In this document: in pieces, positions 21,136-25,986 of the stretch
Layout of the letters: the number at the start of each line of letters is the position of its first letter
Position numbering within the stretch: position 1 is the first letter of the stretch
Assembly (NCBI GenBank): GCA_001072465.1
Contig: JVKM01000016.1
Coordinates: 1 to 41,998, forward strand
Direction: 5' to 3'
DNA from: Xylanimonas cellulosilytica
Lineage (GTDB): Bacteria; Actinomycetota; Actinomycetes; Actinomycetales; Actinomycetaceae
DNA length: 41,998 bases
Program-made: the position numbers and the translations under genes
The notes under the pieces: model-generated
The model's database searches: none
What the model was told of the DNA's origin: nothing
Seen by the model: the letters and a program-made list of their open reading frames with translations, nothing else

Positions 21136-21174
21136 TTATCCACAGGGTCCTTTCGCGTCGCGCCAGTATCCACA
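21136..21174 (+). promoter_or_regulatory. Pair of DnaA-box-like sites upstream of the M23 gene
   Basis: TTATCCACA (21136-21144, exact DnaA-box consensus) and GTATCCACA (21166-21174) lie on the same strand with 21 bases between, 51 bases before the ATG at 21226. The same arrangement occurs at 25948-25986 on the other strand. The rest of the roughly 175-base gap to the rpsB promoter shows nothing I can name. Confidence 0.6.
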
Positions 21175-21225
21175 ACCGACGCCGGCCGACTCGACCTGTG
21201 CGCGGTGTCCCCTCACGCTGATGTC

Positions 21226-21756
21226 ATGACCTCTGTAATCCCGAACCGTGGCTGCTTCAGCACGCTATCGCTGATCGCCGCCTTCGTCGGCACGCTACTC
21301 CTTGTCGCGACACCGCCGGGCGTAGCAACCCCGCACCGCGAGCGGTGGCAGTGGCCGACGGGTAGACCCGTGACCGTCGTCGAAGGATTCGCCCCACCCG
21401 CCCACGACTGGCTTCCCGGGCGTCGCGGGGTGACGTTGCAGTATCCGGCTCCATCCCCGGTGTACGCGTGCGGATCGGGCACTGTGACTGTTGCCGGTCC
21501 CATCGCGGGCCGGGGCGTCATTTCGATTCGGCACGAGGTCGGCGGCCGCGTCGTCTCGTCGACGTATCTGCCGGTGACGCCATCTGTTGCTGTTGGCGAT
21601 CACGTTCAGAAAGGGGACGTCATCGGCGTCGTCGAAGGGGATTCACCCACGCTGCACTGGGGCGCAAAGACCGGCAGGCGCACGTACATCGATCCAATAC
21701 GTATGACGCTCGGGCGTCCGCGTCTTCTCCCCTGGGACGACGTGTTGGCACGATAG
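21226..21756 (+). CDS. M23/LytM-fold secreted protein, probably non-catalytic
   Basis: A 176-residue protein with an N-terminal signal or anchor segment (LIAAFVGTLLLVATPPGVA). An M23/LytM-type beta domain follows: WLPGRRGVTL, VYACGSGTVTVAGPIAGRGV, VAVGDHVQKGDVIGVV and LHWGAKTG. In catalytic relatives the first motif is GHRGVDL, whose His and Asp bind zinc; here they read Arg66 and Thr70. The LHWG histidine (144) remains. It is therefore likely a non-catalytic cell-wall-binding or regulatory homologue. The position between rpsB and xerC matches Rv2891 of M. tuberculosis. The start is ATG 21226; an in-frame GTG at 21205 is possible. Confidence 0.75.
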   Translation: MTSVIPNRGCFSTLSLIAAFVGTLLLVATPPGVATPHRERWQWPTGRPVTVVEGFAPPAHDWLPGRRGVTLQYPAPSPVYACGSGTVTVAGPIAGRGVISIRHEVGGRVVSSTYLPVTPSVAVGDHVQKGDVIGVVEGDSPTLHWGAKTGRRTYIDPIRMTLGRPRLLPWDDVLAR

Positions 21757-21766
21757 CCTCATGCGA

Positions 21767-21788
21767 ATTGCCGAACGCGGTCGGCAAT
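21767..21788. terminator. Hairpin between convergent M23 and xerC genes
   Basis: Perfect 8-bp stem ATTGCCGA/TCGGCAAT with a 6-nt loop, between the M23 stop (21756) and the xerC stop (21823). Probably a two-way terminator. Confidence 0.65.
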
Positions 21789-21822
21789 CACCGGTGAAAC
21801 AACGCGTCCCAGCCCGCGGGTC

Positions 21823-22734
21823 CTAGGCTCGGGGGTGCGCCCGCTGATAGATCGCGCTCAGACGAGCGGTATCCACGTGGGTGTAGCGCTGAGTTGTCGA
21901 CAGCGACGAGTGACCGAGCATCTCCTGGACCGCACGCAGGTCGGCTCCACCCTGCAGCAGGTGCGTCGCCGTTGAATGGCGCAGCCCGTGTGGCGCAATG
22001 TCATGCACGCCAGCGCGCGCCGCCATCTTGTGCACCATCGACCGCACGATACGCGGATCGATGCGACCGCCCTTCTCGCCGAGGAAGAGGGCGTGCCCAC
22101 TGCGCTCCCCGGCCAACTGGGGACGGCCTCGAACCAGCCAATGGTCGAGGGCGTCGGCAGCAGGAGGACCGTAGGGAACCACCCGCTCTTTGTTACCTTT
22201 ACCGACGACGCACACGGTGAGGGCCTCACGGTTCAGGGACGAGATATCGAGGCCGCACACCTCGGAGACGCGAAGCCCACATGCGTACGTCAGCTCGAGG
22301 ATCGCCCAATTGCGAATCTGGGAGGCACCTCCCGCCGACGCTTCATCCCGAGCGGCGTTGAGAAGCACCCTCGCATCGGATTCGTCGAGTGGAGACGGCA
22401 GACGCTGGTCGGCACGCGGAGATGACAGGAGTGCCGCGGGGTCGCTCGCCAGTATTCCTTCACGCATTGCCCAGGAGGTGAAGTTGCGAATCGCAGCGGT
22501 GTGGCGCGCGATCGTCGAGCGCGCTCCCCCATCCGCGAGGGTGCGAGCCAGCCAGGAACGCACTGCGCGCTGCGTGAGCGCCTCTCGCAACTGCTCAGGG
22601 GTCACGTCCGCGTCGAGCGAGAGGAACTCCATGAGCGAGTGAAGATCCCCGAGGTACGCGGAAACTGTGTGGGGGCTCATCCGCCGCCCAAGGCGCAGGT
22701 ACTCTTCCCAGCGCTCCCCCACATTGCGTGTCAT
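21823..22734 (-). CDS. xerC: Tyrosine recombinase XerC
   Basis: A 303-residue site-specific recombinase that resolves chromosome dimers at dif together with XerD. The N-terminal SAM-like DNA-binding domain begins WEEYLRLGRRMSPHTVSAY. The catalytic domain has Arg in YACGLRVSEVCGL, Lys in VGKGNKERVVP, HGLRHSTATHLL, LGHSSLSTTQRYTHV with the His and the nucleophilic Tyr. It starts 9 bases after dprA and closes the yraN-comM-dprA-xerC operon, an arrangement shared with M. tuberculosis. No dif site is seen in the window. Confidence 0.93.
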   Translation of the reverse strand: MTRNVGERWEEYLRLGRRMSPHTVSAYLGDLHSLMEFLSLDADVTPEQLREALTQRAVRSWLARTLADGGARSTIARHTAAIRNFTSWAMREGILASDPAALLSSPRADQRLPSPLDESDARVLLNAARDEASAGGASQIRNWAILELTYACGLRVSEVCGLDISSLNREALTVCVVGKGNKERVVPYGPPAADALDHWLVRGRPQLAGERSGHALFLGEKGGRIDPRIVRSMVHKMAARAGVHDIAPHGLRHSTATHLLQGGADLRAVQEMLGHSSLSTTQRYTHVDTARLSAIYQRAHPRA

Positions 22735-22743
22735 ATGGGTATC

Positions 22744-23904
22744 CTACGGTCTGCCTCCGCCTGTTCGCGTCCAGCCGCGCGTCGTTCCGGCCACTAGACC
22801 CGCAACCGAGAGCTCCATGAGCGCGTAGTTCACTTCTTCGCGCGACAGGGCCGCAGCGACACAGATCGCTTCAACCGACGCGGGAGCGCTCCGGGGAAGT
22901 GCCTCCCACACCCGACGCTGAGTCGGCTCTAGGGCATCAACCCCGTGATCGTCGTCGACGGGCATACCGAACAGAGGCTGGGCGGCGTCAACGCTCACCG
23001 GGCGCACAAGTTCGAGGGCGTCACGCCCATCGCGGATGATCGTCGCTCCGTTGCGCGCAAGCTCGAGGCACCCCACCGACATCGGCGCGTCGACCGCGCC
23101 GGGGACTGCGCCTAGCTCACGCCCGTATTCCATGGCACGACGCGCCGTCGCAAGGGCACCGGAGCGCGCTCCCGCCTCGACGACCACGGTCGCCCCGCTC
23201 CATGCAGCAATCAGGCGGTTACGGGTCAGGAAACGCCACTTCGCCGGCCTCGCGGTGGGAGCGACCTCGGAGATGAGAGCACCACCGCCGTCGATGACAG
23301 CGCGAAAGTCGCCACCGTGGCACGCGGGGTACGGATTGCACACACCACCAGCGAGGATGCAGATCGTGCGCCCACGCGCGGACAGCGCACCCCGGTGAGC
23401 TTCGATGTCAATGCCAATCGCTCCCCCGGACACCACCGTCACCCCTGCTGTAGCAACAAATGCCGCCATGTTGCGTGCGCACCTGTTTCCCGCGCCGGTG
23501 GAAGCGCGAGCTCCCACGATAGACAGATGATGATCCGCCTGCGGAGCGTCGGGCAGGTCGCCGAGGAACCACAATCCCATCGGTTCCTCCTCCCCCAGGC
23601 ACGCAAGGTGCTCTGGCCAACGTGGATCGCCGGGCGTCATGAATCCGCCGCCCGCACGAGCGACACGTGTCAGCTCACTGTCGATGTCGACCGAGAGGGC
23701 CCGCTGCCTCCACCGATTCCACTGCGTGTGCCAGTCAATCCTCGAGTGACGGGCAAGCGACAACGGCGGTGCCGACCAGCTTCCGATCAGCCACGCGCGC
23801 GCATCTCGATCCCCTAAGGACTGACGAAGGACACGTGCGCACGGATCAGCCGGCTCAGCGACGGCAGACCACCACGCAGCCTCCCACAGTTCTGTGTCAT
23901 TCAT
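22744..23904 (-). CDS. dprA: DNA-processing protein DprA
   Basis: A 386-residue protein that loads RecA on incoming single-stranded DNA during transformation. The Rossmann-like core shows SIVGARASTGAGNRCARN, VVSGGAIGIDIEAHRGAL, and FLTRNRLIAAWSGATVVVEA. The C-terminal winged-helix domain (EPTQRRVWEALPRSAPASVE) is present. ATG at 23904 overlaps the last 8 bases of comM. The frame is open 58 codons further but that stretch lies inside comM. Whether this organism takes up DNA is unknown from the window. Confidence 0.93.
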   Translation of the reverse strand: MNDTELWEAAWWSAVAEPADPCARVLRQSLGDRDARAWLIGSWSAPPLSLARHSRIDWHTQWNRWRQRALSVDIDSELTRVARAGGGFMTPGDPRWPEHLACLGEEEPMGLWFLGDLPDAPQADHHLSIVGARASTGAGNRCARNMAAFVATAGVTVVSGGAIGIDIEAHRGALSARGRTICILAGGVCNPYPACHGGDFRAVIDGGGALISEVAPTARPAKWRFLTRNRLIAAWSGATVVVEAGARSGALATARRAMEYGRELGAVPGAVDAPMSVGCLELARNGATIIRDGRDALELVRPVSVDAAQPLFGMPVDDDHGVDALEPTQRRVWEALPRSAPASVEAICVAAALSREEVNYALMELSVAGLVAGTTRGWTRTGGGRP

Positions 23905-25444
23905 AGTGATCCGCTCCGTTCCGCAGCTGCTGCGCTGCAACAATGTGGTCAAAGGTCGGCCGAGGCGCAGCCTCGAGATCGGCGAGCGTCCATGCCAGGC
24001 GTAGCATCCGGTCGATTCCGCGCATAGACGAGTGACCGGAATCGATGAGCCGATCAAGTTGATGAATGAGCGAAGCATCGATGCCTGAGTGGTGTCGCAG
24101 CCACGCTCCCGGAAGCTGCGCGTTCATGGTCCACGGCGTGCCTTTAAGGCGCGCGCGTGCCCTCAAGCGCGCCTCGATAACACGCCCACGTATCGACGCG
24201 GAATCGCGTGTCTGTGTCGACGCCAGGTCCGCCCGACTGGGGGAATGCACGTCGATGCGGATGTCCATCCGATCCAGCAACGGCCCGGACAAACGCGCGA
24301 GATACCTGCGTCGATTCATCGAGGAACAGGTGCATCGACGCCCACCGTATCCGCCTCCGCACGGGCAGGGATTTGACGCCATCACCAGTTGGAATGCTGC
24401 GGGATAACGCGCCTGAACGCCGGAGCGGTGCACATGGATGACGCCCGATTCAAGGGGTTCACGCAGCGAGTCAAGGACGGAGGGAGCAAACTCGGCGGCC
24501 TCGTCGAGAAAGAGGATCCCCCCATGCGCCAGCGAGGCTGCCCCGGGGACGAGCGTGCGCGTGCCCCCACCGATCAGCGCCGGCATGGTCACCGAGTGGT
24601 GTGGGGCTTGGAATGGAGGCCGCGTCATCAGCGATATCGAGGAGGGCAACAGACCCGCCACCGAATGCAACGAGGTGGTGACGAGAGCGGTGTCGGCGTC
24701 GAGATCTGGAAGTATCGTCGGGAGTCGGGAGGCGAGCATCGTCTTGCCGGAACCGGGCTCTCCGAGAAGAAACACATGGTGCCCACCGGCAGCGGCAACT
24801 TCCAGAGCCCCAATTGCTTCCGGCTGACCGCGCACATCGGCCATGTCTGCAAGGGTCGCATCACCGTCACGTTCCCCCTCGCGGCGCACACCCATCCTCC
24901 CGTGGAACGGAGCCTTCACAGCCTCTCCACCGGCCCACGCGATCAGGTCAGCCAGATGCGCGAAGTCCAGGACCTCAATGCCACTGACTAGACGCGCTTC
25001 CTGGGCGCATGCCGACGGCACGATCACCCGGCGAACGCCCCGCGAACGCGCCGCGAGGACAGCCGGCAGCACTCCGCGCACCGGCTGAATACTTCCATCC
25101 AACGCAAGCTCACCAACGAGGACCGCGTCCTCAAAAGCCACCGGTGAGACAAGGCCCGTGGCCAGAGCAATGGACGCCGCGATCGAGAGGTCAAAAGCCG
25201 ACCCCGACTTCGGAATGCCCGCAGGGGACAGATTCACGGTGATGCGTTGGTCCAAGACGTCCAGGCCGCACGACTCGAACGCAGCGCGCACGCGATCGCG
25301 TGCCTCGCGCACGGAGGTGTCGAGCAGGCCGACGAGTGTGAACGCTACGAGGCCCGACCCCGCGTATGTCTCCACGTCGACAAGGTGCCCCTCGATGCCG
25401 ACGATGCTCATGGAATACGTGCGCGCAAGCCCCGGCCCTCTCAT
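23897..25444 (-). CDS. comM: YifB/ComM family AAA+ ATPase (Mg-chelatase-like)
   Basis: A 515-residue AAA+ protein; ComM is a helicase promoting branch migration during natural transformation. The N-terminal Lon-protease-like domain has VNLSPAGIPKSGSAFDL. Walker A is GEPGSGKTML, Walker B is GGILFLDEAAEF, and the zinc-finger region reads NPCPCGGGYGGRRCTCS. The C-terminal domain is FDHIVAAQQLRNGADH. The ATG at 25444 overlaps the yraN stop (ATGA). The long N-terminal extension readable from 25711 lies in yraN on another frame and is not coding. Confidence 0.92.
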   Translation of the reverse strand: MRGPGLARTYSMSIVGIEGHLVDVETYAGSGLVAFTLVGLLDTSVREARDRVRAAFESCGLDVLDQRITVNLSPAGIPKSGSAFDLSIAASIALATGLVSPVAFEDAVLVGELALDGSIQPVRGVLPAVLAARSRGVRRVIVPSACAQEARLVSGIEVLDFAHLADLIAWAGGEAVKAPFHGRMGVRREGERDGDATLADMADVRGQPEAIGALEVAAAGGHHVFLLGEPGSGKTMLASRLPTILPDLDADTALVTTSLHSVAGLLPSSISLMTRPPFQAPHHSVTMPALIGGGTRTLVPGAASLAHGGILFLDEAAEFAPSVLDSLREPLESGVIHVHRSGVQARYPAAFQLVMASNPCPCGGGYGGRRCTCSSMNRRRYLARLSGPLLDRMDIRIDVHSPSRADLASTQTRDSASIRGRVIEARLRARARLKGTPWTMNAQLPGAWLRHHSGIDASLIHQLDRLIDSGHSSMRGIDRMLRLAWTLADLEAAPRPTFDHIVAAQQLRNGADHYE

Positions 25445-25881
25445 TGCACACCCCGCAACCACACGACCTGTGCCCCCAGAGCGCGAAGATCCACGGCCTC
25501 GTCCATGGGAGCCGGCCACGATTCCAGCGTCCGCGCGTCCACGGTGATGGCGACGACGTCGATACGCACACGCGAAGCAAGGTGACCGTGGGCCCTGCAC
25601 CACGCACCCGTCAGCGCTCGAAGCCGCGCCACCTTGCGATGGTCGACCGACGCAAGCGCACTCCCCTTCCTGCGCCCGACCCTGGTGCGCACCTCCACGA
25701 TCACGGTCCACGAACGCAACGGATCGGTCTCGTCACGCGCGATGATATCGAGCTCGCCCCGGCGACCATCACGCCAGTTGGTGTCAAGAAGGCGCAGACC
25801 TGCCTCTTCGAGCGCCAGTCGAGCGGTGTATTCGCCCGCAGCGCCAATGGCCCGACGATCGGGCCGTATTGAGCATCCCAT
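25441..25881 (-). CDS. UPF0102 / YraN family endonuclease-like protein
   Basis: A 146-residue protein of the YraN family, an endonuclease-like fold. GELDIIARD and VIVEVRTRVG are the family's acidic and Glu-x-Lys/Arg motifs, with AAGEYTARLALEEAG at the N terminus. The biological role is unknown; the genes recur beside comM and dprA in actinobacteria. The ribosome-binding site is unusually strong: GGAGGTGATC, matching the 16S tail, 9 bases before the ATG (25881). It is first in the operon with comM, dprA and xerC. A pair of DnaA-box-like sites lies 66 bases upstream. Confidence 0.85.
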   Translation of the reverse strand: MGCSIRPDRRAIGAAGEYTARLALEEAGLRLLDTNWRDGRRGELDIIARDETDPLRSWTVIVEVRTRVGRRKGSALASVDHRKVARLRALTGAWCRAHGHLASRVRIDVVAITVDARTLESWPAPMDEAVDLRALGAQVVWLRGVQ

Positions 25882-25937
25882 CACGGATCACCTCCGCACC
25901 CACAGTGCGCCCGAGACGCTCAGTGACACAATGCGAA

Positions 25938-25965
25938 AACCGCCCCCTGTGGATAGGGAGCGGTT
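25938..25965 (-). terminator. Terminator of the lepB-rnhB-DUF2469 unit
   Basis: 10-bp stem (AACCGCTCCC with GGGGGCGGTT, one G-U pair), 8-nt loop, then TT on the minus strand. One DnaA-box-like site falls inside it. Confidence 0.75.
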
Positions 25966-25986
25966 CGCAAAAAGGCCTGTGGATAA
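25948..25986 (-). promoter_or_regulatory. Pair of DnaA-box-like sites upstream of yraN-comM-dprA-xerC
   Basis: On the minus strand TTATCCACA (25986-25978) and CTATCCACA (25956-25948) have 21 bases between them, 66 bases before the yraN ATG. Order, orientation and spacing match the pair at 21136-21174. Confidence 0.6.

Follow-up and report, generated by a model that had tools for sequence, protein, structure and literature searches.

Paired DnaA-box-like sites upstream of DNA-uptake and DNA-processing genes: a probable control element of natural competence in Actinomycetes

Introduction

The stretch of DNA analyzed here, 41,998 nucleotides long and called the window below (contig JVKM01000016.1 of assembly GCA_001072465.1; contig C16 of a 2.46-Mb genome of the Schaalia odontolytica clade), contains two pairs of DnaA-box-like sites, one upstream of an M23 family peptidase gene and the other upstream of yraN-comM-dprA-xerC. 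The question raised by this locus is what such pairs do, and which protein would bind them. Since pairs precede many DNA-uptake and DNA-processing genes of this oral bacterium and recur before genes of like function in distant relatives, they are probably a switch for natural transformation: on comparative sequence evidence, the paired boxes very probably represent the binding element for an activator of a natural-competence regulon. In the following, handles beginning with G, C and L denote genomes, contigs and fetched stretches, respectively.

Results

Paired boxes in the window and in its genome

The window holds TATCCACA exactly four times (mean expected 0.28; none of 100 shuffles reached four), and the pattern TTATCCACA-N22-TATCCACA, searched with up to two mismatches, twice, both times exactly (expected 0.00). 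An earlier note on this DNA had described the two pairs with their order, orientation to the gene and 30-bp period, and had reported no further TATCCACA in the window; the scans bear this out, positions and strands included, and all four copies belong to the two pairs. The distances from box 2 to the gene start given there, 51 and 66 bases, hold for the ATG at 21226 and the ATG at 25881, respectively.

The pairs extend beyond the two loci that had been noticed. Exact TATCCACA-N22-TATCCACA occurs eight times in the whole genome, and eleven times when up to one mismatch is allowed, with no match for the reversed pattern. A search for the form extended by GG, with up to three mismatches, yielded 16 rows, which fall at 13 loci, and again none for the reversed control; at three of these loci there are three boxes. 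A fourteenth locus, comEA-comEC-holA, was recognized by the gene-first reading described below and carries CGTCCACA-N22-TATCCACA. The genes behind the pairs, assigned with a simple gene caller and with Pfam and NCBIfam, are listed in Table 1. One shared cis element precedes comEA-comEC, tad, dprA-comM and ssb, as is expected of a competence regulon.

Conservation within the genus

A scan of related genomes, which the earlier note had proposed, showed that the motif is conserved before orthologous genes and that matches of the reversed control are rare. The pattern was matched at up to two mismatches in 22 of the 35 congeners (own genome included), and its reversed form once in each of two genomes; nine congeners (G000, G009, G042, G066, G085, G102, G121, G125 and G131) gave 13-17 rows each. 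Homologues of the same gene set lie behind the pair in 59 of 60 stretches taken from five relatives (G085, G042, G131, G121 and G066). These stretches cover 69 of the 77 pair rows of the five, leaving out one of G131 and seven of G066, and the sole stretch with no regulon homologue (L274) has fewer than 500 bases behind the pair in the fetched piece.

Over 10 units, identity was 0.97 and 0.95 for the two boxes, values that are partly built in because the rows were picked by their likeness to the pattern, and 0.96 and 0.88 for the GG after each box, the second GG having stood outside this selection. The corresponding values were 0.45 for the spacer, 0.40 for the upstream flank and 0.52 for the downstream flank. 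The GG after box 1, already noticed in the window, is therefore a real feature conserved among orthologues. A CTTT-GCG stretch between the boxes, noticed at the same time, is present in both window sequences but was rejected as a common spacer element in view of the low spacer identity. Similarly, a period of 30 bp, likened to about three helical turns, is found in this clade, but an exact 30-bp rule had to be given up outside it, where other values within the 26-32 bp searched were found.

In a scan of named genomes, Schaalia odontolytica FDAARGOS_732 was matched at least five times, together with close relatives, and the assigned pairs lead to the same genes. Among the matches listed (80 of 116 stretches), a regulon homologue lies behind the pair in 27 and none in 53, of which 20 are non-actinobacterial by title; a match of L107 to a neighbour gene was left uncounted. 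Records titled Sanguibacter keddieii 250_SKED (L122, L142 and L144) contain regulon genes that match those of Schaalia (88-98% protein identity); this label therefore looks wrong. In G121, a comEA-like gene with a box pair is found twice, at C7:116604 and C7:119844, 3.2 kb apart, the first match being shorter.

Gene-first analysis of orthologous promoters

In order to avoid a choice of loci based on the motif, loci were taken by protein, and a pair was accepted when two exact TCCACA words with a period of 26-32 bp were found upstream of the gene. Such a pair precedes yraN in 28 of 30 congeners (30 of the 34 genomes with a match; own genome included) and comEA at 23 of 30 genus loci (from 33 genomes with a match), with no antisense pair in either set. 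For 59 permuted words, the means per 30 genus loci were 0.20 in the yraN set and 0.12 in the comEA set; the only high one was ATCCAC (11 and 7), which overlaps the box, and all others reached at most 1 of 30.

At the level of the class, 10 of 30 comM loci carry a pair (own genome among the 10; 45 genomes with a match), with one antisense pair; permuted words at these loci gave a mean of 0.05 and a maximum of 1. The period is 27-30 bp in nine of the ten pairs, which stand 442-548 bp ahead of comM, at the place expected for the beginning of yraN. Conservation in orthologous promoters was thus found for yraN and comEA in the genus, and it is partial at class level, because only 10 of 30 comM loci have the pair.

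Spread to other families of the class

Strict patterns gave few matches elsewhere: TATCCACA pairs were found in 3 of 114 genomes outside the genus, and TRTCCACA pairs in 7 of 165 genomes of other genera, one pair each in both cases. The wider spread therefore becomes visible only with the gene-first reading and with the looser TCCACAGG-N19-23-TCCACAG, which is present in 139 of 296 class genomes, some of them with up to 14 places among the matches listed.

Forty pair stretches from five genomes of two other families of the same order, genomes which had been selected for many pairs, were then read for the genes behind the pairs, and about 26 of them lead to competence-type genes: recA (4), ssb (3), tad operons (5), comEA-comEC (2), yraN-comM (3), M23 genes beside XerC (2), DUF559-type genes (3), and genes for ComF-like and SAF-domain proteins, a PD-(D/E)XK nuclease and a RecQ-like helicase. 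The count includes 12 of the 14 pairs of G456, and genes behind the pairs of G365, G375, G436 and other high-count genomes are outside it; the assignment of L384 is DUF559 by homology match and AbiEi_4 by Pfam. Taken together, the pairs form a cis element that is real and conserved and is found in several families of the class; the regulon that it serves is probably one for competence.

Promoter geometry

The position of the boxes relative to the gene was analyzed by column counts. At 12 sites of the own genome, T at +16 (10/12), G at +18 (10/12) and T at +45 (9/12) after box 2 exceed the 95% best-column null. In the class set, the distance from the TCCACAG of box 2 to the predicted start is 49-54 nt in 18 of 37 cases, and TA...T is most frequent at offset 38 (5 of 40 sites; 99.9th percentile of the rotation null, 3). 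These counts suggest a TTGA-like -35 element about 16 bp and a -10 element about 40 bp beyond box 2, and many of the transcripts are probably leaderless. Boxes upstream of such a -35 element would occupy the usual place of an activator, which suggests activation rather than repression.

The same geometry bears on another idea, namely that the pairs are DnaA boxes of the ordinary kind, which serve to titrate DnaA or to mark positions on the chromosome and are close to these genes by coincidence. Sites that titrate DnaA are known from other bacteria. A titration site, however, needs no orientation to the gene, no fixed distance to the -10 element and no gene set shared between distant families, all of which are found here, and this explanation is very improbable.

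Annotated features

The features of the window and the genes behind the other pairs of the genome are collected in Table 1. The ATPase at C45 is named EccC-like only, because its score against TIGR03924, the EccC/EssC equivalog, is 185 bits, below the cut-off of 509. A WhiB-family gene after the EccC-like gene is also present in G042 and G066. A gene for a mycosin-like serine protease (TIGR03921, below cut-off) and one for a 510-aa protein are convergent to the box-preceded Tad pilin genes (L054:4738-7448). For a 31-bp pair at C63:5422, no gene was assigned behind.

An inverted repeat, which probably terminates transcription of the upstream DUF2469 gene, has box 2 of yraN in its loop, and by eye a terminator-like repeat is found around this box in several relatives as well, with different stems. 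That the box is merely the loop of this terminator is nevertheless scarcely credible: the loop word stays constant while the stem varies, and the M23 pair, the other of the two loci compared by eye, has no such hairpin.

Table 1. Paired boxes, putative promoter elements and genes in the window, and genes behind further pairs of the same genome.
Feature	Position	Strand	Basis or remark
Box 1 of M23 gene (TTATCCACA, then GG)	21136..21144	+	Window pattern scans; kept in orthologues
Box 2 of M23 gene (GTATCCACA)	21166..21174	+	Window pattern scans; kept in orthologues
Putative -35-like element TCGACC	21191..21196	+	Offset enriched in regulon, columns +16 to +19 after box 2
Putative -10-like element CACGCT	21214..21219	+	6 nt before ATG 21226; predicted leaderless start
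M23 family peptidase gene	21226..21756	+	Pfam PF01551; ATG 21226 preferred over GTG 21205
xerC-like tyrosine recombinase gene	21823..22734	-	PF00589/PF02899
dprA	22744..23904	-	PF02481; predicted start
comM (Mg-chelatase-like ATPase)	23897..25435	-	PF01078/PF13541/PF13335
yraN (UPF0102)	25441..25884	-	PF02021
Putative -10-like element CACTGT	25902..25907	-	Column analysis
Inverted repeat, box 2 of yraN in loop	25938..25965	-	Sequence by eye; predicted terminator
Box 2 of yraN (CTATCCACA, then GG)	25948..25956	-	Window pattern scans, gene-first set
Box 1 of yraN-comM-dprA-xerC (TTATCCACA, then GG)	25978..25986	-	Window pattern scans, gene-first set
SSB gene behind pair	C1:17286		
184-aa protein before pyrD behind pair	C1:54503		No Pfam or NCBIfam match
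WXG100 protein behind pair (L043)	C8		TIGR03930 56.3 vs cut-off 44.85; PF06013
TPR protein before lepA behind pair	C15:74134		
M23 gene and yraN-comM-dprA-xerC behind pairs	C16 (window)		
DUF559-type frame behind pair	C27 (L049:1-1900)		Cut short by IS3-type insertion
DUF559-type gene behind pair	C31		
3-methyladenine glycosylase behind pair	C36		
EccC/EssC-like ATPase, then WhiB-family gene, behind pair	C45		WhiB: PF02467; L052:1507-1758
105-aa protein, then weakly lipase-like protein, behind pair	C54:7090		105-aa protein: no Pfam match
tad operon behind pair	C54:25258		TadA start about 1.1 kb on; covers operon from there, not first gene
DUF4244 pilin and TadE-like protein behind pair	C54:28747		TadE-like by eye, no Pfam match

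Discussion

A competence regulon and its limits

The earlier note had supposed that paired sites place DNA-processing genes under shared control. The comparison strongly supports shared control, but the set of genes is wider than had been thought, as it takes in competence genes and extends to other families. In the mechanism that we propose, a single regulator would bind two, sometimes three, direct repeats of approximately YYRTCCACAGG, whose period is 30 bp in this clade and, within the range searched, 26-32 bp in other genomes. In a promoter of the sigma-70 type, the centre of box 2 would fall at about -56 and that of box 1 at about -86. The bound regulator would switch on assembly of the Tad pilus, uptake by ComEA/ComEC and processing by ComM, DprA and SSB, together with RecA and a ComF-like protein in other families. 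In the Schaalia clade, the M23 peptidoglycan hydrolase, the WXG100 protein and the EccC-like ATPase would also be wired in.

Several observations weigh against this reading, among them the built-in share of box identity and the choice of pair-rich class genomes mentioned above. The exact TCCACA pair is missing at 7 of 30 comEA and 2 of 30 yraN loci in the genus and at 20 of 30 comM loci in the class. The same loose rule picks up pairs, with periods of 26-32 bp and mixed letters following, in 5 of 19 regions directly behind dnaA, and one in the upstream region of the genome's own dnaA (L045:3976-4003), where CCGTCCACAGA and TTATCCACAGG form a TCCACA pair with a 27-bp period. In the class scan, the reversed pattern was found mostly 0 or 1 times per genome, but six times in G468. 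As many as 14 of the 40 class stretches lead to no obvious competence gene (DUF222, DUF4192, DUF2695, HTH and unknown proteins, or no called gene), and with the simple gene caller no same-strand gene was called behind the pairs of L358, L370 and L386; among the 26 others, the assignments of L362, L380 and L383 are under the curated cut-off, and those of L377 and L382 rest on a tad match further down the operon. With respect to the promoter, A at +41 (7 of 12 own sites) is within the best-column null, and exact TA...T is found at no single offset in three or more of these 12 sites. Finally, the retrieved passages of the literature contain no account of natural transformation of this organism; those of PMC10633639 concern the transformation of epibionts growing on such hosts, not of the host.

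Which protein would bind the boxes

The earlier note named DnaA or another regulator as the candidate. The resemblance to DnaA boxes holds, and no genome gave more than one DnaA domain; the spacing, however, differs from that in Escherichia coli, and an extra GG is present. That DnaA itself is bound at the pairs and activates the competence genes, thereby linking the uptake of DNA with replication state or replication stress, has in our judgement slightly less than an even chance. The core TTATCCACA/TTGTCCACA/TCGTCCACA is a DnaA box, its variants recur next to dnaA in several of the genomes concerned, and TCCACA is retained across the class. Bac_DnaA_C was matched once in 34 of 35 genus genomes, G130 being the exception, and once in each of 11 other genomes; a DnaA paralogue as the regulator is unsupported, since there is at most one match per genome. 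The 27-bp pair upstream of dnaA also speaks for DnaA, and because of it dnaA might belong to the same circuit. The upstream region of dnaB (L044:4840-5009) contains TTATCCACA, CTATCCACAGG and TTGTGCACAGG, the first two 83 bp apart, which possibly reflects plain DnaA control.

On the other side, the boxes preferred by E. coli DnaA are separated by 2-3 bp according to PMC11317965, versus 17-23 bp between the 9-mers here, and the regions beside dnaA in G141 and G247 have no TCCACA word in 900 bases. The letters after the box differ as well: G is found at position 10 in 73 of 94 com boxes versus 67 of 117 boxes beside dnaA (p 0.002), and at position 11 in 61 of 94 versus 38 of 117 (p 4e-6), both p values being too strong because boxes of related genomes are not independent. 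The com boxes of this comparison are gene-first boxes with near-identical genomes dropped, and the dnaA-side set may contain chance words.

The extended GG would be readily accounted for by a dedicated, still unnamed transcription factor with the DnaA-box-like site YYRTCCACAGG, acting as competence regulator, and the period, nearly constant inside a genome but varying from genome to genome (27-31 bp), points the same way. Candidates are a 76-aa HTH_17 protein (PF12728) behind a pair in G280 (L375:523-750), with a homologue behind a pair in a distant genome, that of Cryobacterium sp. MLB-32 (L114); an HTH_31 protein in G247; and the WhiB-family protein behind the EccC-like gene in three genomes. 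The passages of PMC4322843 on Micrococcus luteus, which report no ComK there, also fit a factor of this kind. No regulator gene, however, is common to all regulons read. We regard DnaA and a dedicated factor as equally probable, neither quite reaching one in two. A bolder and rather doubtful proposal is that DnaA is the master competence activator across Actinomycetes, acting through paired boxes 26-32 bp apart in front of promoters for uptake, pilus and recombination genes and so tying DNA uptake directly to the state of replication, and that in the Schaalia clade the switch also fires the hydrolase and the WXG100/EccC-like set, maybe releasing DNA from neighbours.

Comparison with known systems

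In Firmicutes, ComK boxes or ComX/SigX boxes are common to genes for uptake, the pilus, DprA/SSB/RecA and accessory lysis. The element described here resembles these Com-box and CIN-box regulons in that one cis element serves uptake, pilus, DprA/SSB/RecA and lysis genes, and differs from them in that a DnaA-box-like word is repeated in direct orientation, at a distance of 26-32 bp. At recA and DUF222-type sites of other families (L347, L358, L359, L364, L365, L366, L374 and L385), TGTCGGTG-N8-TAGcGT-like words are seen by eye in the -35 region, about 22 nt beyond box 2, which resemble the PafBC (RecA-NDp) motif of DNA-damage promoters in actinobacteria; unlike in PafBC promoters, paired boxes lie upstream of that motif, and they occur without it at most of the other promoters read.

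The E. coli DnaA regulon, as described in the passages of PMC11317965, is alike in the 9-mer core and in having box pairs upstream of regulated genes; its double boxes, with 2-3 bp between them, differ from the present ones, as do its target genes. The Tad/ComEA-ComEC system of M. luteus (PMC4322843, PMC8467076, PMC12849477) has the same machinery genes and belongs to the same class, a comparison that rests on publications, the DNA comparison covering other genomes. The passages concerned state that tad genes are needed for transformation (PMC4322843), that little is known of competence regulation (PMC8467076) and that upstream signals or a regulatory cascade remain to be identified (PMC12849477, 2026). 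A control element is absent from the M. luteus passages of all three; neither 'motif' nor 'DnaA' occurs in the text obtained of PMC12849477, nor does 'DnaA' in that of PMC8467076 (2021). No description of such a paired element was found among the papers listed by literature searches, subscription journals and preprints being mostly outside reach.

What turns on competence in Actinomycetota is an open question, judging by the passages of PMC12849477 on M. luteus. A cis element common to several families of the class would offer a handle to fish out the regulator and to predict transformable species, and it lists unsuspected candidate competence genes, namely those of the 184-aa, TPR, WXG100, EccC-like, DUF559-type and M23 proteins. 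Should DnaA be the regulator, DNA uptake would be wired to replication itself.

Competence-linked killing is known from Vibrio cholerae, with TfoX and the type VI secretion system, and from streptococci, with fratricide and bacteriocins. The regulon described here is alike in that lysis or secretion genes appear to be wired to competence; its counterparts would be the M23 peptidase, the WXG100 protein and the EccC-like ATPase.

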